From Xiphophorus maculatus (Eukaryota > Chordata > Actinopteri > Cyprinodontiformes > Poeciliidae), in NCBI RefSeq assembly GCF_002775205.1, contig NC_036454.1, forward strand, positions 5,461,882 through 5,525,881: DNA of 64,000 nucleotides, read 5' to 3'. Below the pieces are notes generated by a model. That model searched no databases, was not told where the DNA came from, and saw nothing but the letters and a program-made list of their open reading frames with translations. The first letter of the stretch is position 1, and every line of letters begins with the position of its first letter. Of the stretch, positions 15,849 through 44,106 are shown one piece after another. Position numbers and translations under genes: made by a program.

Positions 15849-18800
15849 ATGGACTCTACGGGAAGCCGTAAGTTTTATTTAAATATTCTGGTTTGTTTTA
15901 TTTCTCTTGTATAAAACTTAGAGAAAAGTTACATCATATTTTTTCTGTAGTGTTACAACTCCCTCATCCTGCTAATATAAATTTAATTTTATCTAAGATT
16001 TAGTATAATGCAATGCTTAACTTGGACATTTTCTTTTAAAATGTTCAATCCTTTTACAGAAGAACCTGCAAAGGAACCAATCACTGACAAGGTGAGAAAA
16101 ATTATTTCCTGTTTTGATTTTTCAGTTTATAATTTCTAACATGTTCCGTGTGTACCGACAGCAGCTGGTTGGGGTGAAGTTTTAAAGCTGCAACTTAAAA
16201 ATATTAAAGATGACATTCAGTCTCAACATGTAAATGTTGTCATCAATCATGTGAGTTTAATCCAGGATGATTTATTGTTGCGGTCAGACAGAAACTTGAA
16301 ATCTCGTTTTCTTCACTTTTAATATGAATTCATGCTACGTGCTTTTCTGATGATTTTCGCTCAGTGTTTACCAGAGGACACAGAGACAGATGTGAAGATT
16401 AATCATTAATATAGTTTTCACTAGAAAGCAAAGATAAAGAGGAGGTAGAAAGTTTTTCCCTAGCAGAATCACAGAAATAAGATCCATTAGGTTTTTTCAG
16501 CTTTACTATGAGGTCCAGCATCCTGCAAACCCCAGATCCACCACATGAGGGCAGCATTCCCTTCTCAGTGTGCAGAGCGGTTCCGATGGCTGGTAGTGAT
16601 AATCATATTAGTGCCACATATCTGTATATTTTAAAAAATGATTCTGTTCACCTGCACATACTTAGGATTGTATATTTCTATTTTGATAATGGCACATGAA
16701 CTGATTATGTTGTAGTCTTGTTCAGTACATTTTTATCATTAATCTTGGTTTTTATATATTTTTAAAACTATTTGGTATTTTGTGTAAACTGGCTTTTAAA
16801 TCTGAATTTCCGCTCTGTTTGATAATAAAGGTAATTTCCTTTTCTTCTGCTGATTTCTATCTGGTGAGCTGAACCAGAGAAACGTCTAAAATCCAACGCT
16901 GGCTTAAACATGTTTAACGTAAAGGTTTGTTTAGAAGGTCTGATGTGTCTAAACTTACCTCAAAAGTTTAAAATCTAGATTTTATGAACATTAATCTGGT
17001 TCATATTAAAACCCATAAGGTTTGGCTTAGTCTCTTAAATTTGTCCAACATTAATGTAAATAAGCCATCAACATTTGATCCCATTTCGACCATTCTCAGC
17101 CATGCAGACACAAAAGTAGAACAAAACACGCTTAGGCCCAAAAGCACTAAGTGAGCTTGATGTGGCTTCTTCAATGTTGAATATGTTTTTAATACTGTAA
17201 GACAAATAGCAGAACTTCAGTGAAGGAGACATTCTGATCATGAAATAGTTTTCTTTCTAGTTAAGAAAGAAAATGTGCAAACTGCAAATGAAACCGTGGA
17301 GCTAAACTACCAGCAGCCTGAGAGACAAAGGTTAAAATGATAATAATAGAAATTATTCTGTTTGCCGTTTTCTTCCTTTAAATCTCAGAACGGAGATGAA
17401 CCGAAGCCTGGAGACCTGATTGAGATTTTCCGCAACGTCTATGAACACTGGGCTGTGTACGTTGGTGACGGCTACGTCGTCCATCTGCTGGGACCGGACG
17501 GTGAGTCCAGTCCAAACTGGTGCTACCAGAACAGAAACCACTTTGTTTCAAGGCCACATTCACTAAAACACTCTGCTGTTCACTGAGAAGAAGAGTTTAT
17601 ATGAATCTTGTTACAGCTAAAAACATCAAACTGCAGCCCAGAAAATATCAGAACACCCTTAAACTAAACCCGAGTCAAACTACCATCAGAACCAGAACCG
17701 TTCTCATTCCATAAACATTTTCCTGTCATTTGGTTTCTGTTTGAAGGAAATTTCTCGTCGTTCAGCACCATCAACCTTCCAGTGGGGAAAAACAACATTC
17801 TGAAGCAGAAGCTGCTGGAGGTGGTTTCCTCAGACGAGTGGCACATCAACAACAACATGGACCAGGAGAAGCAGCCGCGCCCCGCCCACGTCATCGTGGA
17901 ACAAGCCAACAAACTCGTCGGCACAACTCGATCGTACAACGTTGTCGACTACAACTGTGAACATTTTGCCACTGAGTTGCGCTACGGAGCCGCCGAGTCC
18001 CAGCAGGTACGTCTGATGGAGACCAAACCGGAGAATATGAAGGACAGATGGAGTTTCTGAGCAGGAGGAAAACTACTTGCTGGAGCCAAAACCTGATTCT
18101 TCACCAAAGGTCCGTTTAGTCAGTTCTTAGGAACATTTCGTAGTCTCAACCTCTAAATCACATGTATCAAAGTCAAGGCCTGGGGGCCAAATTTGGTCCA
18201 CCATAGCTTTATATGTGGCCCTTAGGCTCTAAATTACATCGATAAGTTCCTCCAGCTTTTCACAAATCTGCAAAATTCACATAAAATCCACAGATCCACA
18301 CATTTTTTCTGATTTTACTGCAATTTCTTCTCAAAAATTGCTGTAAAATCTTTGAGTAGTCACTTAAACTCAAAGACATTCAGTTTAAGTGACTTAATAA
18401 AAAATCCCATTTAACATCATGCAATGACGGAAATATTGTAAACATTTCTTACAAATATTTCTAAGTTAGCACCACAAAATCTGTGATTCTGATTGCACAA
18501 AAACGATCACAAACTCCTTGATGGACTGATCAATGTGAAAAGAAGTTCAATATTATTTGACACTGAAACAAACACCTACTTCTTGATATTTTAACAGTTT
18601 AATGGGTTTTATCAATACATTCTGGCACAACCGGCCCTTTAAGAACATTCAGACTTTTGATTTGGCTGAAAATAAAAAAGAGTTTGACATCTCTGCTGTA
18701 AATGCTCCAGAAATGTAGAGTAGTCAAACTTAAAATGAGATTTAAACACAGTTAAAGGCTTACTAAAACGTTTACTGTCGGAGACTGAGAGACTCATGAA

Positions 18801-20394: not shown

Positions 20395-21100
<706 letters not shown>

Positions 21101-21423: not shown

Positions 21424-22676
21424 AGGCCTGTCGCGATAAACGATAAATCAATTAATCGTACGATAAATTAAAACTATCAACGTCATTTTAATTATCGGCA
21501 TTATCGTCTCTTCCGGCCTTTTTCTCTTTCTGTTAATGACACTGAATGAAAAAAAGGCTCAACTCCAGTGCTCTCCCATAGACTCCTCCCTTCCTCATTT
21601 CCTCAGTGTAAAGCCCAGCGCACACTACACGATCTTAGAGCTGTCGGCCGATTTTCAAAATCTGACAGGCCACACATTAGCCGACAGAAATCCTAGGTAT
21701 AACGGTTCAATCCTGCCGTGTGGTGTCCAACAATGGGCACAAAATAATGGCTGCAAGTTCAGTTAACTAATTTTAAAACCAGGCATTAATCAATGCTTTA
21801 CTACAATCTACCTGCAATGCATGTGGCTAGTGTCAGTCCTGACTGAATGAAAATCATTATAACCTATTTACGTCACGTTAAAGAAGAACAGCTGAAAAGT
21901 TACCGGGTTTATCAACTGCGGTAGGAATTTAGCTCCAACTCCTCCCCTTGTCATTTCTGTATTCGTTGCACAAAATGTTGAATAAACATTAATGTTGTTA
22001 TCATCTCCGATGTCCGCTGGACTTCGGGTTGCTCCGTGTCAGCTGTTTGGGATTCCCCTCAGTAATTTCCCCTCAGAAAACATGGAGGAGAATCCGCGCT
22101 TTCTGATTGGCTAACTGTCACATTCAACAGGCTGCGTTAAGCTCCCAGTCGGGGAAAACCCCTGATTTAGATCGGGGCGGCAACGAGGATCTACCGTAAC
22201 ACACCACACAATCTTAGAAAGACCAACGTTCTAAGATTGTTGTAAGGGAAAAAATACGAGCAAAAATCATGTAGTGTGAATTATTGCATCGTGTAGTCGG
22301 ATGTGCCCATCTTCTCTATTTAAATCTAATTATTACTGAAGGGCAACATAATATACAGACTTCATAATCTGTCCTCTTTTGGTTGAATGCAGTATTTATT
22401 TACACTTTGGTTTTATGTTTAGGTTTTTTTCAAATAAATTTTTTGTTAATGGAAACTGAGAATTAATTTTGTTTTTGGTTGTTTTGTTTATCAGTTCGAG
22501 TGTTTAGTGTTCTTTTGGAAAAAAAAGTGTATCTATCTTTGGCAGGAAATCACATGCATTATTACATAATTTCCATTACATCAGTGTAAAAAGGTATTCA
22601 AACAATATCGTTTATCGAAATAATTTTTGAGACAATTAATCGTTCAGCAAAATTTGTCATCGTGACAGGCCTATGT
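21424..22676 (+). mobile_element. hAT-like DNA element left of the array (complete ends)
   Basis: The left end is ATAGGCCTGTCGCGATAAAC and the right end, reverse-complemented, starts ATAGGCCTGTCACGATGACA. Both ends are followed by CGATTAATT-type sequence. About 1.25 kb, without an evident transposase. Its right half (from about 22190) is repeated at 37290-37843 on the far side of the tandem array. Confidence 0.7.
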
Positions 22677-22860
22677 ATATACGTATATATATATAGTATA
22701 TATACTGTATATACAGTATATATACATATATACTGTATATACAAATATATATATATGTATATAGATATATCTTTTGATTGCTAGATGGATAGATATATCA
22801 ATTTATATAGAGTAATGATAATAATAATTAATAATAATAATAATTATTATTATTATTAAC
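22677..22860. repeat. (TA)n-rich block at the array's left edge
   Basis: TATA/GTATA repeats, then ATATCTTTTGATTG and AATAATAATTATT runs. The right part corresponds to the end of the (GATA)n block of the other units, so the array begins around 22760. Confidence 0.7.
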
Positions 22861-23239
22861 ATCCATCCATCATAAACGCATTAAATCTTTTTAGATAGTG
22901 ACAGGAAGCCGGAGCGCCCGGAGAGAAACCTGCAAACAGGATGTTAACTTTTGATAGTTTATTCACAAAATTCAATGTTTCCTCCTCTAGAAAATCAGCT
23001 TTGTTGTTTTGGAGATTAGTGGCAGGAGAAACCATTAGGTGGGATTTTCTGTGGAGTTTGGCGTTTCTCTTCATGTGTTTGCTTCTCATTATGAATCCCG
23101 CTTTTGTACACATTTTCTTGAGAACAGGTTCAGAAAGGTTTAATAACTGAGAACGATTTCTGAACCTGTTGGGAAACTTTTACAGAGGTTGTCCTCTACA
23201 GAGGACGTCTTTATGGCAGCTGGAATCTGAGGATAATCT

Positions 23240-23735
23240 GTTTGTTCATCATAGAAAACCTCACAATCTAGATCAGTTTTTCTTTTAGGGAATCAGTAAA
23301 ATCTGGTCCCAAAGTTTTTCCTCTCTTTCTAACAGTGAGCTATCCAATTCGGGGCAGTTTTTCTTTTGGGAACAGTTCACAATCTGGTCCCAAAGTTTTT
23401 CCTCATTGTCAGAATTACGTACTTGGTCTGGGGCAGTTTTGTCTTTGTTAACAGTCTTTCTGCTGCTCCTCTGCTGCTTCCTGTGTGTTAAGTCTGACGC
23501 TCCGTCTGAGGAACTTTTGCATTCAGAGACCCTGGAGGATGCGCCATTTCTCGATGTTTTCTCTGAACACACCGGAGATGAAATAGTGGAAGAAACTTCC
23601 CCAGCCGGGTCAGCTTGAACTCTGGGAACCGTTGGAAGCCCGTCCCAAAACAAATCTCTGTCAACATCCGGGGAGCTTGAGAAACGACTCTGACTTTTGA
23701 CATGATGTCATCTGTGACCTCATCAGTGAGGTCAC
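23240..23735 (-). pseudogene. Array unit 1: 5'-deleted remnant of the array gene
   Basis: It keeps FWDGLPTVPRVQADPAGEVS, the serine-rich middle and two EKLWDQI repeats. The first coding part, including the hydrophobic N-terminus, is absent: the sequence jumps from the first WDGLPTVP repeat directly to the upstream palindrome at 23715-23734. It also lacks the segment corresponding to ADLKAQALR. No usable start is visible, so this copy is taken as dead. Confidence 0.8.
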
Positions 23736-24154
23736 TGTGGTTCTGAGGCAGAGTCCTGCTTCTGATCGTTGCTATGGGAGCGGTCAGATAAGTTCTGCCT
23801 GATTCAAACTGAAATAATGACCAAATATTTAATAAGTAATGTTTTTTCCATTTATTTAACATGAATTGAATAACATTAGATTTCTACCTTGGTTTTCTGT
23901 ACCTGCTGCCATATAAATTGTCTTTATCCATTATTAATTTGGTTCTGGCAGGAAATTGTTCAGATTTTATAAACATTTGCAAAATAAAATTTTCTCTAAT
24001 CTTTGTTAACTCTCTGTTAATGATAAAATTTTATATATTTTATACTACCTTGTTCTGAAATTGTTAATATCAGTAATGATGTTATTTGTTGCACAACTAA
24101 TATTAGTATTGATTAAATTCAGATCTTAAACAAATGAATAGAAAGGTATCACAT

Positions 24155-24450
24155 ATGTAGATAGATAGATCGATAAATAGATCTATAGATAGATCTATTT
24201 ATCGATCTATCTATAGATCTATTTATCGATCTATCTATATCTATATATAGATAGATTGATCTATCTATAGATCTATATAAATATATATATATATATAGGT
24301 CTATATATCTATATACATAGATATATAGGTCTATATATCTATATATATATCTATATACACGTAGATATAGATATATATATATAGATATATCTTTTGATTG
24401 ATAGATGGATAGATATATCTATTTATATATAGTAATGGTAATATTAATAA
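24155..24450. repeat. (GATA)n/(TATC)n palindromic block between units 1 and 2
   Basis: Interleaved GATA and TATC runs with TCGATAAATAGATC-type palindromes. Equivalent blocks lie at about 26535-26790, 28795-29060, 31565-31830 and 34025-34290. Each copy differs slightly in repeat number. They can fold back on themselves and may promote unequal exchange. Confidence 0.9.
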
Positions 24451-24499
24451 CAATAATAATTATTTTTATTATTAACATCCGTTATAAATCACACTAAAT

Positions 24500-24660
24500 C
24501 TTTTTGGACTGTGGGAGGAAGCCGGAGCGCCCGGAGAGAACCCACATATGGACATGGAGAACCAGAAAACCCCATGCAGACAGAACCAGGCTGGGATTCA
24601 AACCCAGGACTTTCTTACTGCAAGGCAGCAGTGTTACCCACTGAGCCACTGTGCAACACT
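24500..24660 (-). mobile_element. SINE head in array unit 2 (tRNA-like, minus strand)
   Basis: On the minus strand it reads CAGTGGCTCAGTGGGTAACA (A-box TGGCTCAGTGGG), then GTCCTGGGTTTGAATCCCAG (B-box GGTTTGAATCC), then TGTCTGCATGGGGTTTTCTG and GGGTTCTCTCCGGGCGCTCC. This is the 5' part of the SINE seen at 39486. It is cut off just after the CCTCCCACAGTCC motif and joined to array spacer. Copies in the other units: about 26870-27030, 29127-29285, 31903-32062 and 34362-34520. Confidence 0.85.
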
Positions 24661-24814
24661 GATGTTTTATTCACACCAAAGGAGAATTTAGAAACTAATT
24701 AACCAAACAGTGATGACTTTAGATTGTGGCAGGAAGCCGGAGCGCCCGGAGAGAAACCTGCAAACAGGATGTTAACTTTTGATAGTTTATTCACAAAATT
24801 CAATGTCTCTTCCT

Positions 24815-25054
24815 CTAAAAAACAGCTTTGTTGTTTTGGAGATTAGTGGCAGGAGAAACCATTAGGTGGGATTTTCTGTGGAGTGTGGCGTTTCTCTTCA
24901 TGTGTTTGCTTCTCATTATGAATCCCGCTTTTGTACACATTTTCTTGAGAACCGGTTCAGAAAGCTTTAATAACTGAGAACGATTTCTGAACCTGTTGGG
25001 CAACTTTTTGCAGAGGTTGTCCTCTACAGAGGTCGTCTTTATGGCAGCTGGAAT
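24815..25054 (-). CDS. Possible second exon of the array gene, unit 2
   Basis: An open frame beginning after a TATCCTCAG acceptor-like site encodes IPAAIKTTSVEDNLCKKLPN and then a basic stretch (KKMCTKAGFIMRSKHMKRNA) ending NNKAVF. It lies 62 bp beyond the stop of the main frame, in another frame. It joins in phase 0 to the GTAAGT donor inside the main frame at about 25852. Units 3 and 4 keep it open (27426-27070; 29681-29442). Units 5 and 6 lose one base in it and would end early. It could equally be untranslated 3' sequence. Confidence 0.3.
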   Translation of the reverse strand: MPAAIKTTSVEDNLCKKLPNRFRNRSQLLKLSEPVLKKMCTKAGFIMRSKHMKRNATLHRKSHLMVSPATNLQNNKAVF

Positions 25055-25115
25055 CTGAGGATAATCTTTTTGTTCATCATAGAAAACCTCATAATCTAGA
25101 TCAGTTTTTCTTTTG

Positions 25116-25955
25116 TTAAATCATTAAAATCCGGTCCCAAAGTTTTTCCTCTTCTTCTGAGGTTGAATTACCCGATTCAGGGTAGTTTTTCTTTTGGGAA
25201 CTCAGTAAAATCTGGTCCCAAAGTTTTTCCTCTCTTTCTAACAGTGAGCTATCCAATTCGGGGTAGTTTTTCTTTTGGGAACAGTTCACAATCTGGTCCC
25301 AAAGTTTTTCCTCATTGTCAGAATTACGTACTTGGTGTGGGGCAGTTTTGTCTTTAACAGTCTTTCTGCTGCTCCTCTGCTGCTTCCTGTGTGTTAAGTC
25401 TGACGCTCCGTCTGAGGAACTTTTACATTCAGAGACCCTGGAGGATGCGCCATTTCTCGATGTTTTCTCTGAACACACCGGAGATGAAATAGTGGATCTC
25501 AAAGCCTGAGCTTTGAGATCTGCCTCAGAAGAAACTTCCCCAGCCGGGTCAGCTTGAACTCTGGGAACCGTTGGAAGCCCGTCCCAAAACAAATCTCTGT
25601 CAACATCCTGGGAGGTTGAGAAACGACTCTGACTTTTGAGAAAAGAAACTTCCCCAGCCGAGTCAGTTTTATCTCTGGGAACCGTTGGAAGCCCGTCCCA
25701 AATCAAATCTCTGTCAACATGCTGGGAGGTTGAGAAACGACTCTGACTTTCGAGAGAAGAAACTTCCCCAGCCGGGTCAGTTTTATCTCTGGGAACCGTT
25801 GGAAGCCCGTCCCAAAACAAATCTTTCTCAAAATCCTGGGAGGTACTTACGTCCGAGTCGTGTCCAGGAAATAAATGGTCGAAAACTTTCCTCATCCCTG
25901 TCGTCACCAGATATCCTAGTCCAAAACCAAGTGGCAAAATTAAAGGGTATGGCAT
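25116..25955 (-). CDS. Array gene, unit 2: unrecognised 279-aa repeat protein
   Basis: I do not recognise this family. From the first ATG (25955) the protein starts MPYPLILPLGFGLGYLVTTG followed by MRK, a likely signal anchor or membrane segment (about residues 3-20). Three repeats of about 38 residues follow, each with DLFWDGLPTVP or DLIWDGLPTVP and PAGEVSSLESQSRFSTSQ. A serine/basic region (SSRVSECKSSSDGASDLTHR, then KQQRSS) comes next, then three repeats of EEKLWDQIL with SQKKNYPE. Most of it looks disordered. There are three cysteines after the membrane segment. A conserved palindrome lies 140 bp upstream of the ATG (26095-26114). Near-identical sister copies in units 3, 4 and 6 keep the frame open, which suggests it is or was translated. 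Confidence 0.6.
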   Translation of the reverse strand: MPYPLILPLGFGLGYLVTTGMRKVFDHLFPGHDSDVSTSQDFEKDLFWDGLPTVPRDKTDPAGEVSSLESQSRFSTSQHVDRDLIWDGLPTVPRDKTDSAGEVSFLKSQSRFSTSQDVDRDLFWDGLPTVPRVQADPAGEVSSEADLKAQALRSTISSPVCSEKTSRNGASSRVSECKSSSDGASDLTHRKQQRSSRKTVKDKTAPHQVRNSDNEEKLWDQIVNCSQKKNYPELDSSLLEREEKLWDQILLSSQKKNYPESGNSTSEEEEKLWDRILMI

Positions 25956-26094
25956 CTTGGAAACACAAAAATCCTTACTAGACACAAAATCTGAAACTCA
26001 CTGAAGCGTTTGGATTCTAACTGATGTGTTGAGATTCAAGCAGTTAAAGCCTCAGAACTTCTTTGATCTGTTGTGATGTTCATGATGTCGTCTG

Positions 26095-26114
26095 TGACCT
26101 CATCACTGAGGTCA
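26095..26114. promoter_or_regulatory. Palindrome TGACCTCA-n4-TGAGGTCA upstream of each array gene
   Basis: Perfect 8-bp inverted arms with a 4-bp centre, present in all six units: 23715-23734, 26095-26114, 28353-28372, 30722-30741, 33582-33601 and 35959-35978. In unit 1 only the loop differs (TCAG for TCAC). The arms contain nuclear-receptor half-sites (TGACCT and AGGTCA, everted, spacing 8) and each arm is one base from a CRE. A role as a receptor or bZIP site is inference. Confidence 0.5.
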
Positions 26115-26869
26115 CTGTGGCTCTGGGGAGGGTCCTGCTTCTGATCGTTGCTATGGGAACGAACAGATAAGTTCTGCCTGATTCAAACTGAAATAATGAC
26201 CAAATATTTAATAAGTAATGTTTTTTCCATTTATTTAACATGAATTGAATAACATTAGATTTCTACCTTGGTTTTCTGTACCTGCTGCCATATAAATTGT
26301 CTTTATCCATTATTAATTTGGTTCTGGCAGGAAATTGTTCAGATTTTATAAACATTTGCAAAACAAAATTTTCTCTAATCTTTGTTAACTCTATGTTAAT
26401 GATAAAATTTTATATATTTTATACTACCTTGTTCTGAAATTGTTAATATCAGTAATGATGTTATTTGTTGCACAACTAATATTAGTATTGATTAAATTCA
26501 GATCTTAAACAAATGAATAGAAAGGTATCACATATGTAGATAGATAGATCGATAAATAGATCTATAGATAGATCTATTTATCGATCTATCTATAGATCTA
26601 TTTATCGATCTATCTATATCTATATATAGATAGATTGATCTATCTATAGATCTATATAAATATATATATAGGTCTATATATCTATATACATAGATATATA
26701 GGTCTATATATCTATATATATCTATATACACGTAGATATAGATATATATATATAGATATATCTTTTGATTGATAGATGGATAGATATATCTATTTATATA
26801 TAGTAATGGTAATATTAATAACAATAATAATTATTTTTATTATTAACATCCGTTATAAATCACACTAAA

Positions 26870-27030
26870 TCTTTTTGGACTGTGGGAGGAAGCCGGAGCG
26901 CCCGGAGAGAACCCACATATGGACATGGAGAACCAGAAAACCCCATGCAGACAGAACCAGGCTGGGATTCAAACCCAGGACTTTCTTACTGCAAGGCAGC
27001 AGTGTTACCCACTGAGCCACTGTGCAACAC
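26870..27030 (-). mobile_element. SINE head in array unit 3
   Basis: Same truncated tRNA-like SINE head as in unit 2, with A-box TGGCTCAGTGGG and B-box GGTTTGAATCC on the minus strand. The identical truncation shows that it was present before the units multiplied. Confidence 0.85.
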
Positions 27031-27069
27031 TGATGTTTTATTCACACCAAAGGAGAATTTAGAAACTAA

Positions 27070-27426
27070 TTAACCAAACAGTGATGACTTTAGATTGTGG
27101 CAGGAAGCCGGAGCGCCCGGAGAGAAACCTGCAAACAGGATGTTAACTTTTGATAGTTTATTCACAAAATTCAATGTCTCTTCCTCTAAAAAATCAGCTT
27201 TGTTGTTTTGGAGATTAGTGGCAGGAGAAACCATTAGGTGGGATTTTCTGTGGAGTGTGGCGTTTCTCTTCATGTGTTTGCTTCTCATTATGAATCCCGC
27301 TTTTGTACACATTTTCTTGAGAACCGGTTCAGAAAGCTTTAATAACTGAGAACGATTTCTGAACCTGTTGGGCAACTTTTTGCAGAGGTTGTCCTCTACA
27401 GAGGTCGTCTTTATGGCAGCTGGAAT
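27070..27426 (-). CDS. Possible second exon of the array gene, unit 3 (longest version)
   Basis: Same as the unit 2 second frame, but with one extra base in a run of A, so it reads on through KADFLEEETLNFVNKLSKVN to GFSPGAPASC and stops at 27070. The GFSPGAPASC part is read from SINE-derived sequence (GCAGGAAGCCGGAGCGCCCG on the plus strand). Unit 1 keeps the same longer reading, so the longer form may be ancestral. Whether it is translated is unknown. Confidence 0.3.
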   Translation of the reverse strand: MPAAIKTTSVEDNLCKKLPNRFRNRSQLLKLSEPVLKKMCTKAGFIMRSKHMKRNATLHRKSHLMVSPATNLQNNKADFLEEETLNFVNKLSKVNILFAGFSPGAPASCHNLKSSLFG

Positions 27427-27487
27427 CTGAGGATAATCTTTTTGTTCATCATAGAAAACCTCATAATCTAGATCAGTTTTTCTTTTG

Positions 27488-28213
27488 TTAAATCATTAAA
27501 ATCCGGTCCCAAAGTTTTTCCTCTTCTTCTGAGGTTGAATTACCCGATTCAGGGTAGTTTTTCTTTTGGGAACTCAGTAAAATCTGGTCCCAAAGTTTTT
27601 CCTCTCTTTCTAACAGTGAGCTATCCAATTCGGGGTAGTTTTTCTTTTGGGAACAGTTCACAATCTGGTCCCAAAGTTTTTCCTCATTGTCAGAATTACG
27701 TACTTGGTGTGGGGCAGTTTTGTCTTTAACAGTCTTTCTGCTGCTCCTCTGCTGCTTCCTGTGTGTTAAGTCTGACGCTCCGTCTGAGGAACTTTTACAT
27801 TCAGAGACCCTGGAGGATGCGCCATTTCTCGATGTTTTCTCTGAACACACCGGAGATGAAATAGTGGATCTCAAAGCCTGAGCTTTGAGATCTGCCTCAG
27901 AAGAAACTTCCCCAGCCGGGTCAGCTTGAACTCTGGGAACCGTTGGAAGCCCGTCCCAAAACAAATCTCTGTCAACATCCTGGGAGGTTGAGAAACGACT
28001 CTGACTTTTGAGAAAAGAAACTTCCCCAGCCGGGTCAGTTTTATCTCTGGGAACCGTTGGAAGCCCGTCCCAAAACAAATCTTTCTCAAAATCCTGGGAG
28101 GTACTTACGTCCGAGTCGTGTCCAGGAAATAAATGGTCGAAAACTTTCCTCATCCCTGTCGTCACCAGATATCCTAGTCCAAAACCAAGTGGCAAAATTA
28201 AAGGGTATGGCAT
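27488..28213 (-). CDS. Array gene, unit 3: 241-aa copy with two WDGLPTVP repeats
   Basis: Identical in plan to the unit 2 gene (N-terminal hydrophobic segment, WDGLPTVP repeats, serine-rich middle, three EKLWDQIL repeats ending WDRILMI), but one whole 38-residue repeat is missing. This keeps the frame and shows that the internal repeat number changes by unequal exchange or slippage. Start taken as the ATG giving MPYPLILPLG at 28213. Function unknown. Confidence 0.6.
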   Translation of the reverse strand: MPYPLILPLGFGLGYLVTTGMRKVFDHLFPGHDSDVSTSQDFEKDLFWDGLPTVPRDKTDPAGEVSFLKSQSRFSTSQDVDRDLFWDGLPTVPRVQADPAGEVSSEADLKAQALRSTISSPVCSEKTSRNGASSRVSECKSSSDGASDLTHRKQQRSSRKTVKDKTAPHQVRNSDNEEKLWDQIVNCSQKKNYPELDSSLLEREEKLWDQILLSSQKKNYPESGNSTSEEEEKLWDRILMI

Positions 28214-29126
28214 CTTGGAAACACAAAAATCCTTACTAGACACAAAATCTGAAACTCACTGAAGCGTTTGGATTCTAACTGATGTGTTGAGATTCAAGCA
28301 GTTAAAGCCTCAGAACTTCTTTGATCTGTTGTGATGTTCATGATGTCGTCTGTGACCTCATCACTGAGGTCACTGTGGCTCTGGGGAGGGTCCTGCTTCT
28401 GATCGTTGCTATGGGAACGAACAGATAAGTTCTGCCTGATTCAAACTGAAATAATGACCAAATATTTAATAAGTAATGTTTTTTCCATTTATTTAACATG
28501 AATTGAATAACATTAGATTTCTACCTTGGTTTTCTGTACCTGCTGCCATATAAATTGTCTTTATCCATTATTAATTTGGTTCTGGCAGGAAATTGTTCAG
28601 ATTTTATAAACATTTGCAAAACAAAATTTTCTCTAATCTTTGTTAACTCTATGTTAATGATAAAATTTTATATATTTTATACTACCTTGTTCTGAAATTG
28701 TTAATATCAGTAATGATGTTATTTGTTGCACAACTAATATTAGTATTGATTAAATTCAGATCTTAAACAAATGAATAGAAAGGTATCACATATGTAGATA
28801 GATCGATAAATAGATCTATAGATAGATCTATTTATCGATCTATCTATAGATCTATTTATCGATCTATCTATATCTATATATAGATAGATTGATCTATCTA
28901 TAGATCTATATAAATATATATATATATAGGTCTATATATCTATATACATAGATATATAGGTCTATATATCTATATATATCTATATACACGTAGATATAGA
29001 TATATATATAGATATATCTTTTGATTGATAGATGGATAGATATATCTATTTATATATAGTAATGGTAATATTAATAACAATAATAATTATTTTTATTATT
29101 AACATCCGTTATAAATCACACTAAAT

Positions 29127-29285
29127 CTTTTTGGACTGTGGGAGGAAGCCGGAGCGCCCGGAGAGAACCCACATATGGACATGGAGAACCAGAAAACCCC
29201 ATGCAGACAGAACCAGGCTGGGATTCAAACCCAGGACTTTCTTACTGCAAGGCAGCAGTGTTACCCACTGAGCCACTGTGCAACA
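29127..29285 (-). mobile_element. SINE head in array unit 4
   Basis: Same truncated SINE head as in units 2, 3, 5 and 6, with both box motifs intact on the minus strand. Confidence 0.85.
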
Positions 29286-29441
29286 CTGATGTTTTATTCA
29301 CACCAAAGGAGAATTTAGAAACTAATTAACCAAACAGTGATGGCTTTAGATTGTGGCAGGAAGCCGGAGCGCCCGGAGAGAAACCTGCAAACAGGATGTT
29401 AACTTTTGATAGTTTATTCACAAAATTCAATGTCTCTTCCT

Positions 29442-29681
29442 CTAAAAAACAGCTTTGTTGTTTTGGAGATTAGTGGCAGGAGAAACCATTAGGTGGGATT
29501 TTCTGTGCAGTGTGGCGTTTCTCTTCATGTGTTTGCTTCTCATTATGAATCCCGCTTTTGTACACATTTTCTTGAGAACAGGTTCAGAAAGCTTTAATAA
29601 CTGAGAACGATTTCTGAACCTGTTGGGCAACTTTTTGCAGAGGTTGTCCTCTACAGAGGTCGTCTTTATGGCAGCTGGAAT
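29442..29681 (-). CDS. Possible second exon of the array gene, unit 4
   Basis: Open frame matching unit 2 base for base in plan: IPAAIKTTSVEDNLCKKLPN, basic middle, ending NNKAVF. It has the same acceptor-like TATCCTCAG before it. Evidence for translation is only that the frame is kept in units 2-4. Confidence 0.3.
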   Translation of the reverse strand: MPAAIKTTSVEDNLCKKLPNRFRNRSQLLKLSEPVLKKMCTKAGFIMRSKHMKRNATLHRKSHLMVSPATNLQNNKAVF

Positions 29682-29742
29682 CTGAGGATAATCTTTTTGT
29701 TCATCATAGAAAACCTCATAATCTAGATCAGTTTTTCTTTTG

Positions 29743-30582
29743 TTAAATCATTAAAATCCGGTCCCAAAGTTTTTCCTCTTCTTCTGAGGTTGAATTACCC
29801 GATTCAGGGTAGTTTTTCTTTTGGGAACTCAGTAAAATCTGGTCCCAAAGTTTTTCCTCTCTTTCTAACAGTGAGCTATCCAATTCGTCGTAGTTTTTCT
29901 TTTGGGAACAGTTCACAATCTGGTCCCAAAGTTTTTCCTCTTTGTCAGAATTACGTACTTGGTGTGGGGCAGTTTTGTCTTTAACAGTCTTTCTGCTGCT
30001 CCTCTGCTGCTTCCTGTGTGTTAAGTCTGACGCTCCGTCTGAGGAACTTTTACATTCAGAGACCCTGGAGGATGCGCCATTTCTCGATGTTTTCTCTGAA
30101 CACACCGGAGATGAAATAGTGGATCTCAAAGCCTGAGCTTTGAGATCTGCCCCAGAAGAAACTTCCCCAGCCGGGTCAGCTTGAACTCTGGGAACCGTTG
30201 GAAGCCCGTCCCAAAACAAATCTCTGTCAACATCCTGGGAGGTTGAGAAACGACTCTGACTTTTGAGAAAAGAAACTTCCCCAGCCGGGTCAGTTTTATC
30301 TCTGGGAACCGTTGGAAGCCCGTCCCAAATCAAATCTCTGTCAACATGCTGGGAGGTTGAGAAACGACTCTGACTTTCGAGAGAAGAAACTTCCCCAGCC
30401 GGGTCAGTTTTATCTCTGGGAACCGTTGGAAGCCCGTCCCAAAACAAATCTTTCTCAAAATCCTGGGAGGTACTTACGTCCGAGTCGTGTCCAGGAAATA
30501 AATGGTCGAAAACTTTCCTCATCCCTGTCGTCACCAGATATCCTAGTCCAAAACCAAGTGGCAAAATTAAAGGGTATGGCAT
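29743..30582 (-). CDS. Array gene, unit 4: 279-aa copy
   Basis: Same domain order as unit 2, with three WDGLPTVP and three EKLWD repeats. A few residue changes (PAGEVSSGADLK for PAGEVSSEADLK; NYDELDS for NYPELDS; NSDKEEK for NSDNEEK) distinguish it. The frame is intact. The upstream palindrome lies at 30722-30741, and a foreign GC-rich insert begins about 260 bp upstream of the ATG (30845), possibly within the 5' control region. Function unknown. Confidence 0.6.
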   Translation of the reverse strand: MPYPLILPLGFGLGYLVTTGMRKVFDHLFPGHDSDVSTSQDFEKDLFWDGLPTVPRDKTDPAGEVSSLESQSRFSTSQHVDRDLIWDGLPTVPRDKTDPAGEVSFLKSQSRFSTSQDVDRDLFWDGLPTVPRVQADPAGEVSSGADLKAQALRSTISSPVCSEKTSRNGASSRVSECKSSSDGASDLTHRKQQRSSRKTVKDKTAPHQVRNSDKEEKLWDQIVNCSQKKNYDELDSSLLEREEKLWDQILLSSQKKNYPESGNSTSEEEEKLWDRILMI

Positions 30583-30844
30583 CTTGGAAACACAAAAATC
30601 CTTACTAGACACAAAATCTGAAACTCACTGAAGTGTTTGGATTCTAACTGATGTGTTGAGATTCAAGCAGTTAAAGCCTCAGAACTTTTTTGATCTGTTG
30701 TGATGTTCATGATGTCGTCTGTGACCTCATCACTGAGGTCACTGTGGCTCTGGGGAGGGTCCTGCTTCTGATCGTTGCTATGGGAACGAACAGATAAGTT
30801 CTGCCTGATTCAAACTGAAATAATGACCAAATATTTAATAAGTG

Positions 30845-31238
30845 CCCAGAATATTGCCCTGATCACCGCTGTATCACTCCCATCATCCTGGGATAAAGTT
30901 GAATTTTCGGACTTCCAGGGCAGGGCACCTGCGCAGGCGGCCGTATCCGCAGCACCTCACTGTCCTCGGCCTCGGGGCTCCGGAGGCCCCGGTGATTTTC
31001 GACCTCCATAAATTATTTTAAAAATGCATTTCCCCGGGGGAAGCCGTATATTGCCGGAAAGGCCAGAGTCTGGAGAATCCTCTGGTGTGGTTGTTTGGCT
31101 TCTGGGACGTCCGCAGGAGGAATTAAAAGTCGAAAACCCTAATTGGTCAAAACGGTCAAAAATGCATATTTTCGGCCAAAATCATCCACGGGCCGACAGC
31201 CCGCGGTCCAGAGAAGGGCCCTGTGCGGCAGAGTCGTC
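30845..31238. mobile_element. GC-rich 394-bp insertion in array unit 4
   Basis: All other units read ATTTAATAAGTAATGTTTTT across this point. In unit 4 the GC-rich block lies between AATAAGT and AGTAATG, suggesting a 3-bp AGT target duplication. The insert (GCCCAGAATATTGCCCTGAT to CAGAGTCGTCTTT) has no clear terminal inverted repeats, tail or open frame. Its base composition is quite unlike the surroundings. Origin unknown. Confidence 0.75.
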
Positions 31239-31902
31239 TTTAGTAATGTTTTTTCCATTTATTTAACATGAATTGAATAACATTAGATTTCTACCTTGGT
31301 TTTCTGTACCTGCTGCCATATAAATTGTCTTTATCCATTATTAATTTGGTTCTGGCAGGAAATTGTTCAGATTTTATAAACATTTGCAAAACAAAATTTT
31401 CTCTAATCTTTGTTAACTCTATGTTAATGATAAAATTTTATATATTTTATACTACCTTGTTCTGAAATTGTTAATATCAGTAATGATGTTATTTGTTGCA
31501 CAACTAATATTAGTATTGATTAAATTCAGATCTTAAACAAATGAATAGAAAGGTATCACATATGTAGATAGATAGATCGATAAATAGATCTATAGATAGA
31601 TCTATTTATCGATCTATCTATAGATCTATTTATCGATCTATCTATATCTATATATAGATAGATTGATCTATCTATAGATCTATATAAATATATATATATA
31701 GGTCTATATATCTATATACATAGATATATAGGTCTATATATCTATATATATCTATATACACGTAGATATAGATATATATATATATAGATATATCTTTTGA
31801 TTGATAGATGGATAGATATATCTATTTATATATAGTAATGGTAATATTAATAACAATAATAATTATTTTTATTATTAACATCCGTTATAAATCACACTAA
31901 AT

Positions 31903-32062
31903 CTTTTTGGACTGTGGGAGGAAGCCGGAGCGCCCGGAGAGAACCCACATATGGACATGGAGAACCAGAAAACCCCATGCAGACAGAACCAGGCTGGGAT
32001 TCAAACCCAGGACTTTCTTACTGCAAGGCAGCAGTGTTACCCACTGAGCCACTGTGCAACAC
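31903..32062 (-). mobile_element. SINE head in array unit 5
   Basis: Same truncated tRNA-like SINE head with intact A- and B-box motifs. Confidence 0.85.
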
Positions 32063-32529
32063 TGATGTTTTATTCACACCAAAGGAGAATTTAGAAACTA
32101 ATTAACCAAACAGTGATGACTTTAGATTGTGGCAGGAAGCCGGAGCGCCCGGAGAGAAACCTGCAAACAGGATGTTAACTTTTGATAGTTTATTCACAAA
32201 AATCAATGTCTCTTCCTCTAAAAAACAGCTTTGTTGTTTTGGAGATTAGTGGCAGGAGAAACCATTAGGTGGGATTTTCTGTGGAGTGTGGCGTTTCTCT
32301 TCATGTGTTTGCTTCTCATTATGAATCCCGCTTTTGTACACATTTTCTTGAGAACAGGTTCAGAAAGCTTTAATAACTGAGAACGATTTCTGAACCTGTT
32401 GGGAAACTTTTACAGAGGTTGTCCTCTACAGAGGTCGTCTTTATGGCAGCTGGAATCTGAGGATAATCTGTTTGTTCATCATAGAAAACCTCATAATCTA
32501 GATCAGTTTTTCTTTTGTTAAATCATTAA

Positions 32530-33442
32530 AATCCGGTCCCAAAGTTTTTCCTCTTCTTCTGAGGTTGAATTACCCGATTCAGGGAAGTTTTTCTTTTGGG
32601 AACTCAGTAAAATCTGGTCCCAAAGTTTTTCCTCTCTTTCTAACAGTGAGCTATCCAATTCAGGGTAGTTTTTTCTTTTGGGAACTCAGTAAAATCTGGT
32701 CCCAAAGTTTTTCCTCTCTTTCTAACAGTGAGCTATCCAATTCGGGGTAGTTTTTCTTTTGGGAACAGTTCACAATCTGGTCCCAAAGTTTTTCCTCATT
32801 GTCAGAATTACGTACTTGGTCTGGGGCAGTTTTGTCTTTGTTAACAGTCTTTCTGCTGCTCGTCTGCTGCTTCCTGTGTGTTAAGTCTGACGCTCCGTCA
32901 GAGGAACATTTACATTCAGAGACCCTGGAGGATGCGCCATTTCTCGATGTTTTCTCTGAACACACCGGAGATGAAATAGTGGATCTCAAAGCCTGAGCTT
33001 TGAGATCTGCCCCAGAAGAAACTTCCCCAGCCGGGTCAGCTTGAACTCTGGGAACCGTTGGAAGCCCGTCCCAAAACAAATCTCTGTCAACATCCTGGGA
33101 GCTTGAGAAATGACTTGGACTTTCGAGAGAAGAAACTTCCCCAGCCGGGTTAGCTTTATCCCTGGGAACCGTTGGAAGCCCGTCCCAAATCAAATCTCTG
33201 TCAACATCCGGGGAGCTTGAGAAACGACTCTGACTTTCGAGAGAAGAAACTTCCCCAGCCGGGTCAGTTTTATCTCTGGGAACCGTTGGAAGCCCGTCCC
33301 AAAACAAATCTCTCTCAATATCCTGGGAGGTACTTACGTCCGAGTCGTGTCCAGGAAATAAATGGTCGAAAACTTTCCTCATCCCTGTCGTCACCAGATA
33401 TCCTAGTCCAAAACCAAGTGGCAAAATTAAAGGGTATGGCAT
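32530..33442 (-). CDS. Array gene, unit 5: frameshifted copy (open frame 260 aa, stop at 32660)
   Basis: The ATG at 33442 opens the usual protein with three WDGLPTVP repeats. This unit has four EKLWD-type repeats instead of three. One carries an extra A (an extra T on the plus strand in the run near 32670), so the frame ends at QKKKLP and stop at 32660. The remaining one and a half repeats to about 32530 are out of frame. The product would lack the C-terminal WDRILMI. It may still be a working shorter protein, since the change affects only the end. Confidence 0.55.
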
Positions 33443-34361
33443 CTTGGAAACACAAAAATCCTTACTAGACACAAAATCTGAAACTCACTGAAGTGTTGGG
33501 ATTCTAACTGATGTGTTGAGATTCAAGCAGTTAAAGCCTCAGAACTTCTTTGATCTGTTGTGATGTTCATGATGTCGTCTGTGACCTCATCACTGAGGTC
33601 ACTGTGACTCTGGGGAGGGTCCTGCTTCTGATCGTTGCTATGGGAACGAACAGATAAGTTCTGCCTGATTCAAACTGAAATAATGACCAAATATTTAATA
33701 AGTAATGTTTTTTCCATTTATTTAACATGAATTGAATAACATTAGATTTCTACCTTGGTTTTCTGTACCTGCTGCCATATAAATTGTCTTTATCCATTAT
33801 TAATTTGGTTCTGGCAGGAAATTGTTCAGATTTTATAAACATTTGCAAAACAAAATTTTCTCTAATCTTTGTTAACTCTCTGTTAATGATAAAATTTTAT
33901 ATATTTTATACTACCTTGTTCTGAAATTGTTAATATCAGTAATGATGTAATTTGTTGCACAACTAATATTAGTATTGATTAAATTCAGATCTTAAACAAA
34001 TGAATAGAAAGGTATCACATATGTAGATAGATAGATCGATAAATAGATCTATAGATAGATCTATTTATCGATCTATCTATAGATCTATTTATCGATCTAT
34101 CTATATCTATATATAGATAGATTGATCTATCTATAGATCTATATAAATATATATATATAGGTCTATATATCTATATACATATAGATATATAGGTCTATAT
34201 ATCTATATATATCTATATACACGTAGATATAGATATATATATATAGATATACCTTTTGATTGATAGATGGATAGATATATCTATTTATATATAGTAATGG
34301 TAATATTAATAACAATAATAATTATTTTTATTATTAACATCCGTTATAAATCACACTAAAT

Positions 34362-34520
34362 CTTTTTGGACTGTGGGAGGAAGCCGGAGCGCCCGGAGAG
34401 AACCCACATATGGACATGGAGAACCAGAAAACCCCATGCAGACAGAGTCAGGCTGGGATTCAAACCCAGGACTTTCTTACTGCAAGGCAGCAGTGTTACC
34501 CACTGAGCCACTGTGCAGCA
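34362..34520 (-). mobile_element. SINE head in array unit 6
   Basis: Same truncated SINE head, with a few substitutions (GAGTCA for GAACCA; TGCAGC for TGCAAC), and both box motifs kept. Confidence 0.85.
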
Positions 34521-34976
34521 CTGATGTTTTATTCACACCAAAGGAGAATTTAGAAACTAATTAACCAAACAGTGATGACTTTAGATTGTGGCAGGAAGCC
34601 GGAGCGCCCGGAGAGAAACCTGCAAACAGGATGTTAACTTTTGATAGTTTATTCACAAAATTCAATGTTTCTTCCTCTAAAAAACAGCTTTGTTGTTTTG
34701 GAGATTAGTGGCAGGAGAAACCATTAGGTGGGATTTTCTGTGGAGTGTGGCGTTTCTCTTCATGTGTTTGCTTCTCATTATGAATCCCGCTTTTGTACAC
34801 ATTTTCTTGAGAACAGGTTCAGAAAGGTTTAATAACTGAGAACGATTTCTGAACCTGTTGGGAAACTTTTACAGAGGTTGTCCTCTACAGAGGTCGTCTT
34901 TATGGCAGCTGGAATCTGAGGATAATCTGTTTGTTCATCATAGAAAACCTCATAATCTAGATCAGTTTTTCTTTTG

Positions 34977-35819
34977 TTAAATCATTAAAATCCGGTCCCA
35001 AAGTTTTTCCTCTTCTTCTGAGGTTGAATTACCCCATTCGGGGTAGTTTTTCTTTTGGGAACTCAGTAAAATCTGGTCCCAAAGTTTTTCCTCTCTTTCT
35101 AACAGTGAGCTATCCAATTCGGGGTAGTTTTTCTTTTGGGAACAGTTCACAATCTGGTCCCAAAGTTTTTCCTCATTGTCAGAATTACGTACTTGGTCTG
35201 GGGCAGTTTTGTCTTTGTTAACAGTCTTTCTGCTGCTCGTCTGCTGCTTCCTGTGTGTTAAGTCTGACGCTCCGTCTGAGGAACTTTTACATTCAGAGAC
35301 CCTGGAGGATGCGCCATTTCTCGATGTTTTCTCTGAACACACCGGAGATGAAATAGTGGATCTCAAAGCCTGAGCTTTGAGATCTGCCCCAGAAGAAACT
35401 TCCCCAGCCGGGTCAGTTTGAACTCTGGGAACCGTTGGAAGCCCGTCCCAAAACAAATCTCTGTCAACATCCGGGGAGCTTGAGAAATGACTCTGACTTT
35501 CGAGAGAAGAAACTTCCCCAGCCGGGTCAGTTTTATCTCTGGGAACCGTTGGAAGCCCGTCCCAAAACAAATCTCTGTCAACATGCTGGGAGGTTGAGAA
35601 ACGACTCTGACTTTCGAGAGAAGAAACTTCCCCAGCCGGGTCAGTTTTATCTCTGGGAACCGTTGGAAGCCCGTCCCAAAACAAATCTTTCTCAAAATCC
35701 TGGGAGGTACTTACGTCCGAGTCGTGTCCAGGAAATAAATGGTCGAAAACTTTCCTCATCCCTGTCGTCACCAGATATCCTAGTCCAAAACCAAGTGGCA
35801 AAATTAAAGGGTATGGCAT
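34977..35819 (-). CDS. Array gene, unit 6: 280-aa copy
   Basis: Intact frame from ATG 35819, with three WDGLPTVP and three EKLWD repeats. It differs from units 2-4 by an extra asparagine in the lysine-rich part (TVNKDKTAPD against TVKDKTAPH), QTSSRK for QRSSRK and YPEWGNS for YPESGNS. The first two differences are shared with unit 5 (and the first with unit 1), so units 1, 5 and 6 form one lineage and units 2-4 another. Palindrome upstream at 35959-35978. Confidence 0.6.
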   Translation of the reverse strand: MPYPLILPLGFGLGYLVTTGMRKVFDHLFPGHDSDVSTSQDFEKDLFWDGLPTVPRDKTDPAGEVSSLESQSRFSTSQHVDRDLFWDGLPTVPRDKTDPAGEVSSLESQSHFSSSPDVDRDLFWDGLPTVPRVQTDPAGEVSSGADLKAQALRSTISSPVCSEKTSRNGASSRVSECKSSSDGASDLTHRKQQTSSRKTVNKDKTAPDQVRNSDNEEKLWDQIVNCSQKKNYPELDSSLLEREEKLWDQILLSSQKKNYPEWGNSTSEEEEKLWDRILMI

Positions 35820-36283
35820 CTTGGAAACACAAAAATCCTTACTAGACACAAAATCTGAAACTCACTGAAGTGTTTGGATTCTAACTGATGTGTTGAGATT
35901 CAAGCAGTTAAAGCCTCAGAACTTCTTTGATCTGTTGTGATGTTCATGATGTCGTCTGTGACCTCATCACTGAGGTCACTGTGGCTCTGGGGAGGGTCCT
36001 GCTTCTGATCGTTGCTATGGGAACGAACAGATAAGTTCTGCCTGATTCAAACTGAAATAATGACCAAATATTTAATAAGTAATGTTTTTTCCATTTATTT
36101 AACATGAATTGAATAACATTAGATTTCTACCTTGGTTTTCTGTACCTGCTGCCATATAAATTGTCTTTATCCATTATTAATTTGGTTCTGGCAGGAAATT
36201 GTTCAGATTTTATAAACATTTGCAAAACAAAATTTTCTCTAATCTTTGTTAACTCTATGTTAATGATAAAATTTTATATATTG

Positions 36284-37040
36284 TTGTTGCGCAACATCCC
36301 TCCCCCCTCTTCTCTCTCTCTACTTCCTCTTCTGAGAGAGGAGATGTGCTACCAGCACTCCGTCTATCGGGTTACTTGAGTTTCCTAAATCTGCTGGGAT
36401 TTATCCTGTCCAGAACTGAAGTAAACTCTGTTTAAGCTGGCATCGAGAAAAGATTCGCCTGGTTTCTGACGAACTACATCCAGGTGTCCCAACCTTCTTC
36501 CCCCTGTGAATTAGCCAGACTGAGCAGCCTGCAGCCAACTAGTTTCACAGAGCACACCTGTTAACGGCCGCTCTTCTCTTTATGACAACTTGCACTTGGT
36601 ACAGAACCAGGTTGGTTTTAGTGACTCAGTGAGTCCCAAGGATGTTGTTTTACATATGGACTACCAGCAACCTAAAAACATTTTCCACTTTTTCCTCTCC
36701 AGAATCAAACATCAGAGCTATTTTACAACCATCAAAGAACTTTAAGGTGACTCATTAACTGAATGTCAACATCTTTTAGATTTTCTTTATGCTAAGTATT
36801 TTATTAGTAAGGCATTTTTGCAAGGGTCAGTACAGCTTAATTCAGTAGCAGAAATAATCAAATAAGTAAAATCAATCATCTAGTCTATCTTTCCCTAATG
36901 CTGACACCGAGAACTAAAAAGGGAACTTTTGAGAGAGACGGACGGAGCATGGCTTTTCAAACCCCAGACCTGGCCTGATGATGAAGAAGGTGTGAAGTGC
37001 GATTTGAAGCCACATGTTGCGGATTGGTCCCCATGCGTTT
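36284..37040. other. Unassigned unique sequence right of the array
   Basis: The array homology stops sharply at TATATTG and is replaced by TTGCGCAACATCCC and a CT-rich run, then about 700 bp matching nothing else in the window. I see no exon that I can support. A transposon or LTR-type fossil is possible, but no defining ends were found. Confidence 0.3.
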
Positions 37041-37289: not shown

Positions 37290-37843
37290 AGCCCCCTGAT
37301 CTACCGTAACACACCACACACTACAGGATGATCGGTTACGAAATCATAAACGACAATCTTAGAACGGCCGGCGTTCTAACATTGTCTTAAGGGGAAAAAT
37401 AGGGGCAAAAAAACCTTGTAGTGTGAACTATTGCATCAGGTAGTCGATGTGCCCATTTTCTCTATTTAAATCTAATTATTACTGAAGGGCAACATAGTAT
37501 ACAGACTTCATAATCTGCACTCTTTTGGTTGAATGCAGTATTTATTTCCACTTTGGCTTTATGTTGTTTAGTTTTTTTTCAAGTAAATTTTTTGTTAATG
37601 GAGACTGAGAATCCATTTTATTTTTGTTTTTGGTTGTTTTGTTTATTTTGTTTATCAGTTCCAGTGTTTAGTGTTCTTTTGAAAATAAAGTGTATCTATC
37701 TTTGGCAGGAAATCGCATGCGTTATTACGTCATTTCCATTACATCAGTGTAAAAAGGTCTTCAAACAATATTATCGTTTATCGCAATAATTTTTGAGACA
37801 ATTAATCGTTCAGCAAAATTTGTTATCGTGACAGGCCTATGTA
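37290..37843 (+). mobile_element. Right half of the hAT-like element, right of the array
   Basis: It matches 22190-22676 in order and orientation: TGATCTACCGTAACACACCACAC, TTTAAATCTAATTATTACTG, TAATGGAGACTGAGAAT and the same right end GTTATCGTGACAGGCCTATG. The left part of the element is missing. Confidence 0.8.
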
Positions 37844-38070
37844 TCAATTTAACAAATAGCAATTAAATAGGTTAAAACAACAGATCAATATGTAGAGATG
37901 GATGTACAGAATTCCTAAAGGATATGTACATTTTGAAACTACAGAGAAAACTGCATCATCTCTCCACCACCACTTGCTGGTGTCTGTAAAAGTGTGTATT
38001 TTCTCTAAGCCAACTTAAACTTCCAGTTTACATCATCAGTGTGAACTCAAGTCAAAAAGAATCAAAGGAC

Positions 38071-43984: not shown

Positions 43985-44106
43985 AATGTCACTGAGAGAA
44001 GCACAACAGACAAAAAGCTCATTTATCAGGCTACAATCACACTGCAGGTTTTAATGCTCAACTCTGATTTTTTGTGAAATCCAAATTTTCTTTGTTCATA
44101 TTTACA

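Follow-up and report, generated by a model that had tools for sequence, protein, structure and literature searches.

Within a 64,000-nucleotide stretch of the Xiphophorus maculatus genome (the window; assembly GCF_002775205.1, contig NC_036454.1, positions 5,461,882 to 5,525,881), a tandem array of closely similar genes extends from position 22760 to 36283. We consider it likely that this array consists of recently amplified, intron-free genes of a large, genome-wide, USP-related family, and that these genes have lost the USP domain, carry a frame-shifted repeat tail and a predicted membrane anchor, may be transcribed from an RFX-type promoter and possibly serve as competitors or scaffolds. 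An earlier reading of the sequence (the first-pass annotation) had recognised no known family here; the genes instead belong, as one branch, to a family found throughout the genome, in which the long members bear a USP domain. Arrays of this kind, i.e., multicopy, intron-free and USP-related, are already known, and what is new is the absence of the USP domain, the frame-shifted repeat and a promoter common to an unrelated array family. A single genome would thereby show a protease-like family that discards its enzyme domain, recasts part of its protein through a frame shift within repeats and still multiplies.

The recent tandem array of six units described in the first-pass annotation was confirmed by self-comparison. 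The units are matched in register at spacings of 2379, 2258, 2770, 2459 and 2377 nt, with an array edge at about 36282. Among the five units that hold a gene, most long alignments reach 96-99% identity, with 94% over one 630-nt stretch, and the sixth unit is 90-99% alike to the others. As had been proposed, five units each hold a minus-strand gene of 241-280 codons (starts and codon counts are listed in the table), a single open frame without introns whose product begins MPYPLILPLGF. Four of the five genes end in EEEEKLWDRILMI, and copy B, the one with the altered C-terminal end, stops early after SSQKKKLP. Copies D and E are identical over their 723 shared coding bases and in the flanks that were compared. 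The upstream stretch of copy C is unlike that of the other copies: about 400 bp (30843-31242) interrupt its alignment to the other units, apparently as an insertion. The predicted N-terminal hydrophobic segment is present at residues 5-21 (17-residue mean hydropathy 1.56, a moderate value) and is followed by Arg-Lys. Scans of two window open reading frames against Pfam gave no family above cut-off, a search of the PDB with the window protein gave a sole match at E 1.5, and Rfam gave no match anywhere in the window. Among titles and the beginnings of abstracts in the open-licence literature, no paper on such a family was found.

The wider family became apparent in the window's own assembly (704 Mb, 101 contigs, here labelled C, with loci labelled L). 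The copy A protein has 168 matches there in many clusters; among 150 of them that were listed, 13 contain an internal stop and 137 do not (counted by eye, some genes forming two rows), a degree of openness that goes beyond chance. Two further arrays lie on the window's contig (C12 5.24-5.25 Mb and 5.616-5.621 Mb), and other clusters on C8, C17, C4, C20, C23 and C7. Twenty regions around such matches were read. L031 and L033 on C14 and L032 on C21 are open for 762, 712 and 711 residues, L033 being a close copy of L031; all three have the shared N-terminal hydrophobic segment and repeats, then a USP domain, then a C-terminal hydrophobic hairpin (maximal 17-residue means of 3.3 for L031 and 2.6 for L032). 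In other members (L034-L036 and L045-L049) the N-terminal segment and repeats are accompanied by a C-terminal hydrophobic stretch, and a USP-type domain is absent. With L032 as query, 43 of 78 rows match the domain in stop-free frames of 380-1232 residues, partly in tandem arrays, and the L059 domain has 140 matches in the genome.

Both fold and sequence profile assign L058, L059 and their kin to USP / UCH (PF00443), and it was only from these two closer members that the PDB profile search found USPs. By sequence, the nearest catalytic domains in the PDB are those of USP25 and USP28 (first hundred residues only, E 0.005-0.13), in which, as in L058 and L059, a tryptophan follows the catalytic cysteine. 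Fold searches place USP46 and USP12 above them, with USP30 also among the matches, so that the two rankings do not agree on a parent among the USPs. Of seven aligned members, L058 and L059 retain the catalytic cysteine, and the other five (L031, L032, L033, L056 and L057) have serine or glycine at that position; the histidine before F is kept in all but L056 and L057. We hold a USP-related origin of the window genes to be very likely. A structure model from the first profile, A1, had a pLDDT of 32 and was not used. Elsewhere in the family, a single 1232-residue open frame at C11:4365157-4368429 contains three tandem USP domains, two of them 98% alike; C5:30.4-31.2 Mb is dense with USP-domain fragments, short and in many cases interrupted, and seems to be a graveyard array; and units of L044 (C20:16402000-16410000, at 3274-4332 and 6424-7482) also hold a 353-residue frame, which we take to be a Tc1-like transposase, so that gene and transposon seem to have been amplified together.

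How might the window genes have come to lack the domain? The DNA of L032 and copy A aligns colinearly: nt 9-625 of L032 match the N-terminal segment, the type-1 repeats and the linker (65%, E 2e-58), nt 807-936 match the type-2 repeats (65%, E 1.6e-8), and nt 1709-1847, just past the USP domain, match DNA behind the copy A stop (68%, E 2e-12). This last match recurs in eight of ten stretches, namely three window units (E 2e-12 to 4e-11) and L040 (4e-14), L044 (1e-13), L041 (2e-12), L055 (6e-12) and L050 (4e-17). None of 500 shuffles did as well for the post-USP match, but 276 of 500 did for the stretch of the USP domain, and between the flanking matches L032 has about 770 bp where the window has about 200. 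We conclude from these values, together with the Pfam scan, that the USP domain is missing from the window genes. Homology on either side, together with the out-of-frame position of the post-USP piece, leads us to infer loss rather than gain, a direction taken from the alignment; the window branch accordingly appears to have lost its USP domain through an internal deletion. That the window stops are followed by a decayed USP start was considered and dropped: the hint from tblastn (E 0.002-0.01) was opposed by the 276 of 500 DNA shuffles, and frameshift-tolerant scores of six stretches against L032 residues 313-420 were equalled in 1 of 60 shuffles for two of them and in 5, 11, 13 and 51 of 60 for the others.

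The array genes hold tandem repeats of 114 bp (38 codons, type 1) and 81 bp (27 codons, type 2), which the first-pass annotation had taken for two kinds of tryptophan repeat. Both are present, but they prove to be one repeat in two frames. The L032 repeat VFGNNLPVVPKEKTDPAG shares its frame with the window type-1 repeat LFWDGLPTVPRDKTDPAG, to which it aligns with two one-base gaps that offset each other; its alignment with the type-2 repeat LWDQIVNCSQKKNYPEL is gapless over 76 nt but displaced by one base; none of 500 shuffles was as good in the latter comparison, nor in that of type 1 with type 2. On the strength of this gapless, phase-shifted alignment, the type-2 tryptophan repeat reads as an overprinted product of type 1. 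Judged from the DNA, both repeats are one ancestral repeat, of which EEKLWDQIL is the reading displaced by one base. Tails of the type-2 kind (EE..W) also occur in the short and medium relatives L037-L044 and L050-L054, so the frame shift looks older than the array. Likenesses to PPP1R15-like tryptophan repeats, kinesin W-acidic motifs and LIR motifs were weighed and dropped; WxxL/I/V cores can be counted, but in several subfamilies M or F takes that position.

Upstream of the genes, a block GTT[T/C/G]CCATAG[C/A]AA[C/T]GA.CAGA is present in 16 of 16 regions chosen from different subfamilies. It contains, near the gene start, a 14-bp inverted repeat resembling an X-box (the left half being one base off the consensus in most copies), and the window has five exact matches to GTTNCCATAGCAAC against a chance mean of 0.01. 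CRE-like half sites (TGACCTCA, ATGAGGTCA) follow about 35 nt away, as located by eye. Transcription through an RFX-type factor is a tentative proposal from these motifs, and expression in the germline or in ciliated cells we hold to be almost as probable as its opposite. One report describes a 14-bp inverted-repeat X-box in spermiogenesis genes and derives its name from promoters of class II of the major histocompatibility complex (MHC) (PMC4498915). Across the genome, a 26-base promoter element occurs, with up to two mismatches, 72 times on the forward and 74 times on the reverse strand, and a reversed control not once; for the 211-bp promoter stretch of copy A, the best 40 scored of 125 candidates are 94-100% alike.

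Many of the 26-base places sit in clusters without matches to the window protein. One such place that was read, L061 (C11:12170400-12171100, 1-701), has the same leader followed by a different open frame. Its leader is 85% identical to the window promoter over 133 gapless nt (E 1e-35) and has 40 genome matches, 31 of them at 95-100%; seven of the other nine adjoin window-type genes. The first 170 residues of L061 do not meaningfully resemble the window protein (E 25), the best match to L032, a gapped one of 45 residues (E 0.008), was taken as chance, and a Pfam scan of the protein gave nothing above cut-off. These 170 residues have 80 genome matches, of which 35 are stop-free over at least 166 residues (by eye), in frames of 217-363 residues on C11, C16, C62, C7, C17 and C23. 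The family, which we label GRAMD4-like, has pieces of a possible multi-exon parent on C2 (25871254-25875504, E 0.003-0.5) and C17 (14530263-14531255, E 0.02-0.2), and since these pieces are weak, a retro-origin is only suggested for it. If the sharing is real, one promoter module in unrelated families would be an unusual route from copied genes to expressed arrays, and the two families are predicted to have the same expression pattern. Second-family matches at C11:12671671-12675721 lie within about 4 kb of a window-family N-terminal match (12675539-12675721, an 87-residue frame), a possible exchange site. The 26-base element further occurs without a listed match to either protein nearby at C4:25019631, C10:12629574, C18:7111280, C24:12444191 and C12:30058947.

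We envisage that an internal deletion removed the USP domain from the window branch and that the last repeats, displaced by one base, became a new tail (EEKLWDQIL), which would then have multiplied in 81-bp steps. Residues 5-21 are predicted to insert into a membrane, that of the endoplasmic reticulum or the mitochondrial outer membrane, leaving the acidic, Ser/Thr-rich repeat tail in the cytosol. An RFX-type factor may drive transcription in male germ cells or ciliated cells, and the tandem copies would raise the dose of the short proteins. The latter might act as membrane-tethered competitors of, or scaffolds for, the long USP-bearing relatives; this is the weakest step, and a competitor role in particular strikes us as doubtful. 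Should the products be germline-specific, the array would be a candidate for a copy-number arms race.

Are the frames maintained as proteins? Over 13 overlapping pairs, with codons differing at all three bases left out, differences in residues 1-45 fall 59/37/93 on the three codon positions, and as the third-position excess is confined to this part, the N-terminal segment is constrained and the repeats not detectably so. A non-coding satellite, which the first-pass annotation had named as its refuting case, is therefore at odds with the N-terminal segment but possible for the repeats. The suggested comparison of replacement with silent rates gave dN/dS of 0.43-0.88 between window and sister arrays. 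For diversifying selection, also suggested there, the evidence falls short: replacement changes dominate within the array, but they are few (e.g., 13 against 1 silent in one pair, suggestive but small), and the repeats and gene conversion confound the count. Gaps in multiples of three make up 47 of 75 in coding and 34 of 82 in upstream sequence (overlapping pairs), a weak indication only.

Several observations weigh against the reading we favour. Membrane insertion is not certain, the hydropathy being only moderate, and because no intron-bearing parent gene was found for the window family, the genes can be called no more than probably retro-derived. The post-USP match is absent from two of the ten stretches (L037 and L043), and the 200 bp between the flanking matches have no recognisable likeness to L032. 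Neither L031 nor L032 nor the window open reading frames reach a Pfam cut-off, and profile A1 gave two unrelated weak PDB matches and no USP. Differences in the middle repeats (188/213/209) and the type-2 part (172/146/175) show no codon-position bias, and dN/dS between subfamilies is mostly 0.5-1.1. Finally, the window and four of five L042-type copies are about 95% alike upstream and about 90% in the first 57 codons (89% upstream against L051), which indicates that exchange or gene conversion has scrambled the history and weakens all rate tests. A rival view is that the array is passive debris, i.e., truncated USP-family copies spread by segmental duplication and unequal crossing-over that stay open through youth and homogenisation and have no protein function. 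The domain is gone, the frame shifted and the repeats unbiased; most window pairs exceed the neutral replacement expectation or have too few changes; copy F is truncated and copy B altered at its end; and degenerate relatives exist, for instance on C5. The third-position preference in the N-terminal 45 codons argues otherwise, as does the promoter block conserved in every upstream region compared, and frames are kept between subfamilies at dS of about 0.2-0.6, whereas in a neutral simulation that ignored indels, 0.15 changes per site left only 72-121 of 2000 200-codon frames open. We regard debris as an unlikely account, if one to be taken seriously.

Alternatively, the gene could be cargo or the coding part of a transposon that spread the family across chromosomes. 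Segments of 2.2-4.3 kb on C4, C6, C9, C13, C17 and C23 are indeed 96.5-98.5% alike (some ends set by the fetched stretch), and a direct repeat of about 470-490 bp, 88% alike, stands on either side of the array (22208-22678 and 37353-37844). However, the eight dispersed-copy breakpoints examined and the window's own all differ and share no terminal motif by eye, as would be expected of segmental duplication rather than of an element whose termini are fixed. The repeat at the flanks is a dispersed high-copy element of no relation to the array (1701 first-look candidates, 40 scored) and was rejected as a terminal repeat on this ground and that of the varying breakpoints, and no recognisable transposase was seen by eye among window frames of at least 100 residues; a mobile element is most improbable. 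Scarcely better placed is a diversified, copy-number-variable innate defence protein driven by an MHC-type X-box beside a TRIM gene. The same source traces the first description of the X-box to MHC class II promoters (PMC4498915), a RING/B-box/SPRY gene lies nearby, and four of the six pairs that exclude copy C diverge more in the coding frame than in either 400-bp flank. Yet the CRE-like site stands apart from the X-box and does not adjoin it as it does in MHC promoters, the Pfam scan of the window genes found no known receptor or secreted domain, and the TRIM neighbour may be coincidence. It is also conceivable, but quite unlikely, that a cassette of promoter and 5' leader (X-box and CRE-like sites) was joined to at least two unrelated intron-free families, both then amplified, with long pseudo-USPs and USP-less derivatives as rivals in a germline conflict in which copy number is the weapon; multicopy spermatid gene systems are the proposed model for such a conflict.

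How do USP-less, amplified genes compare with known systems? The nearest relatives are the long members of the same genome: L031 and L032 have the N-terminal segment, the repeats and the promoter block in common with the window genes, and L031-L033, like the more distant L056-L059, are single open frames, other USP members standing in tandem arrays; all of these long members keep the USP domain, and L031-L033 the C-terminal hairpin as well, whereas the window genes have neither. USP30 has an N-terminal membrane anchor before its USP domain, no repeats, several exons and a single copy, and resembles the long relatives in this arrangement by description (anchor sequences not compared). USP26 and USP29 are testis-biased, fast-evolving, retro-derived, intronless relatives of USP37 that do not form arrays and keep the USP domain. 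USP17 is not known to combine an anchor with repeats. According to a published account, DUB/USP17 genes of the RS447 megasatellite have a 1593-bp open reading frame in a 4746-bp tandem unit, the frame or the active residues are not preserved in some copies, and the expansion is independent in each species (PMC2874809). The likeness, drawn by description without comparing sequences, lies in the open frame within a head-to-tail unit, found in five of the six window units; the difference is that USP17 is a deubiquitinase and the window genes lack the domain.

Table. Coordinates of array features in the window, all on the minus strand; genes A to E begin with their ATG at the higher coordinate.
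Feature	Position	Strand	Remarks
Gene copy A	34977..35819	-	280 codons from ATG
Gene copy B	32660..33442	-	260 codons, alternative C-terminal end KKKLP
Gene copy C	29743..30582	-	279 codons
Gene copy D	27488..28213	-	241 codons, one 114-bp repeat fewer
Gene copy E	25116..25955	-	279 codons
Truncated copy F (sixth unit)	23285..23707	-	140-codon frame; 5' part of gene and N-terminal segment gone
Type-1 repeats, copy A	35391..35708	-	114 bp x 2.8 (LFWDGLPTVPRDKTDPAGEV); same frame as L032
Type-2 repeats, copy A	34964..35174	-	81 bp x 2.6 (EEKLWDQI..SQKKNYPE); ancestral repeat, reading displaced by one base
X-box-like site upstream of copy A	36011..36024	-	GTTCCCATAGCAAC
X-box-like site upstream of copy B	33634..33647	-	
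X-box-like site upstream of copy C	30774..30787	-	
X-box-like site upstream of copy D	28405..28418	-	
X-box-like site upstream of copy E	26147..26160	-	
Post-USP match behind copy A stop	34673..34799	-	68%, E 2e-12; 0/500 shuffles
Post-USP match behind copy B	32214..32340	-	DNA alignment to L032
Post-USP match behind copy D	27182..27309	-	DNA alignment to L032
Upstream region of outermost gene	36283..36992	-	part of 1.2-1.4 kb stretch from ~35619, also present in dispersed relatives on other contigs at 93-94%

Outside the array, the window holds a minus-strand RING / B-box / PRY-SPRY gene at 42608-44050, which we presume to be a TRIM gene of the fish-expanded kind, a frame with an LRAT domain at 17668-18060 (E 7.5e-17) and one with ankyrin repeats at 8397-8864 (E 1.9e-13). 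A 33-bp minisatellite of 27.8 copies at 10997-11901 is open in three frames over 313-348 codons, which are likely accidental because the period is a multiple of three. At 20466-21060, an 81-84 bp tandem repeat resembles, by eye, a C2H2 zinc-finger exon on the minus strand.

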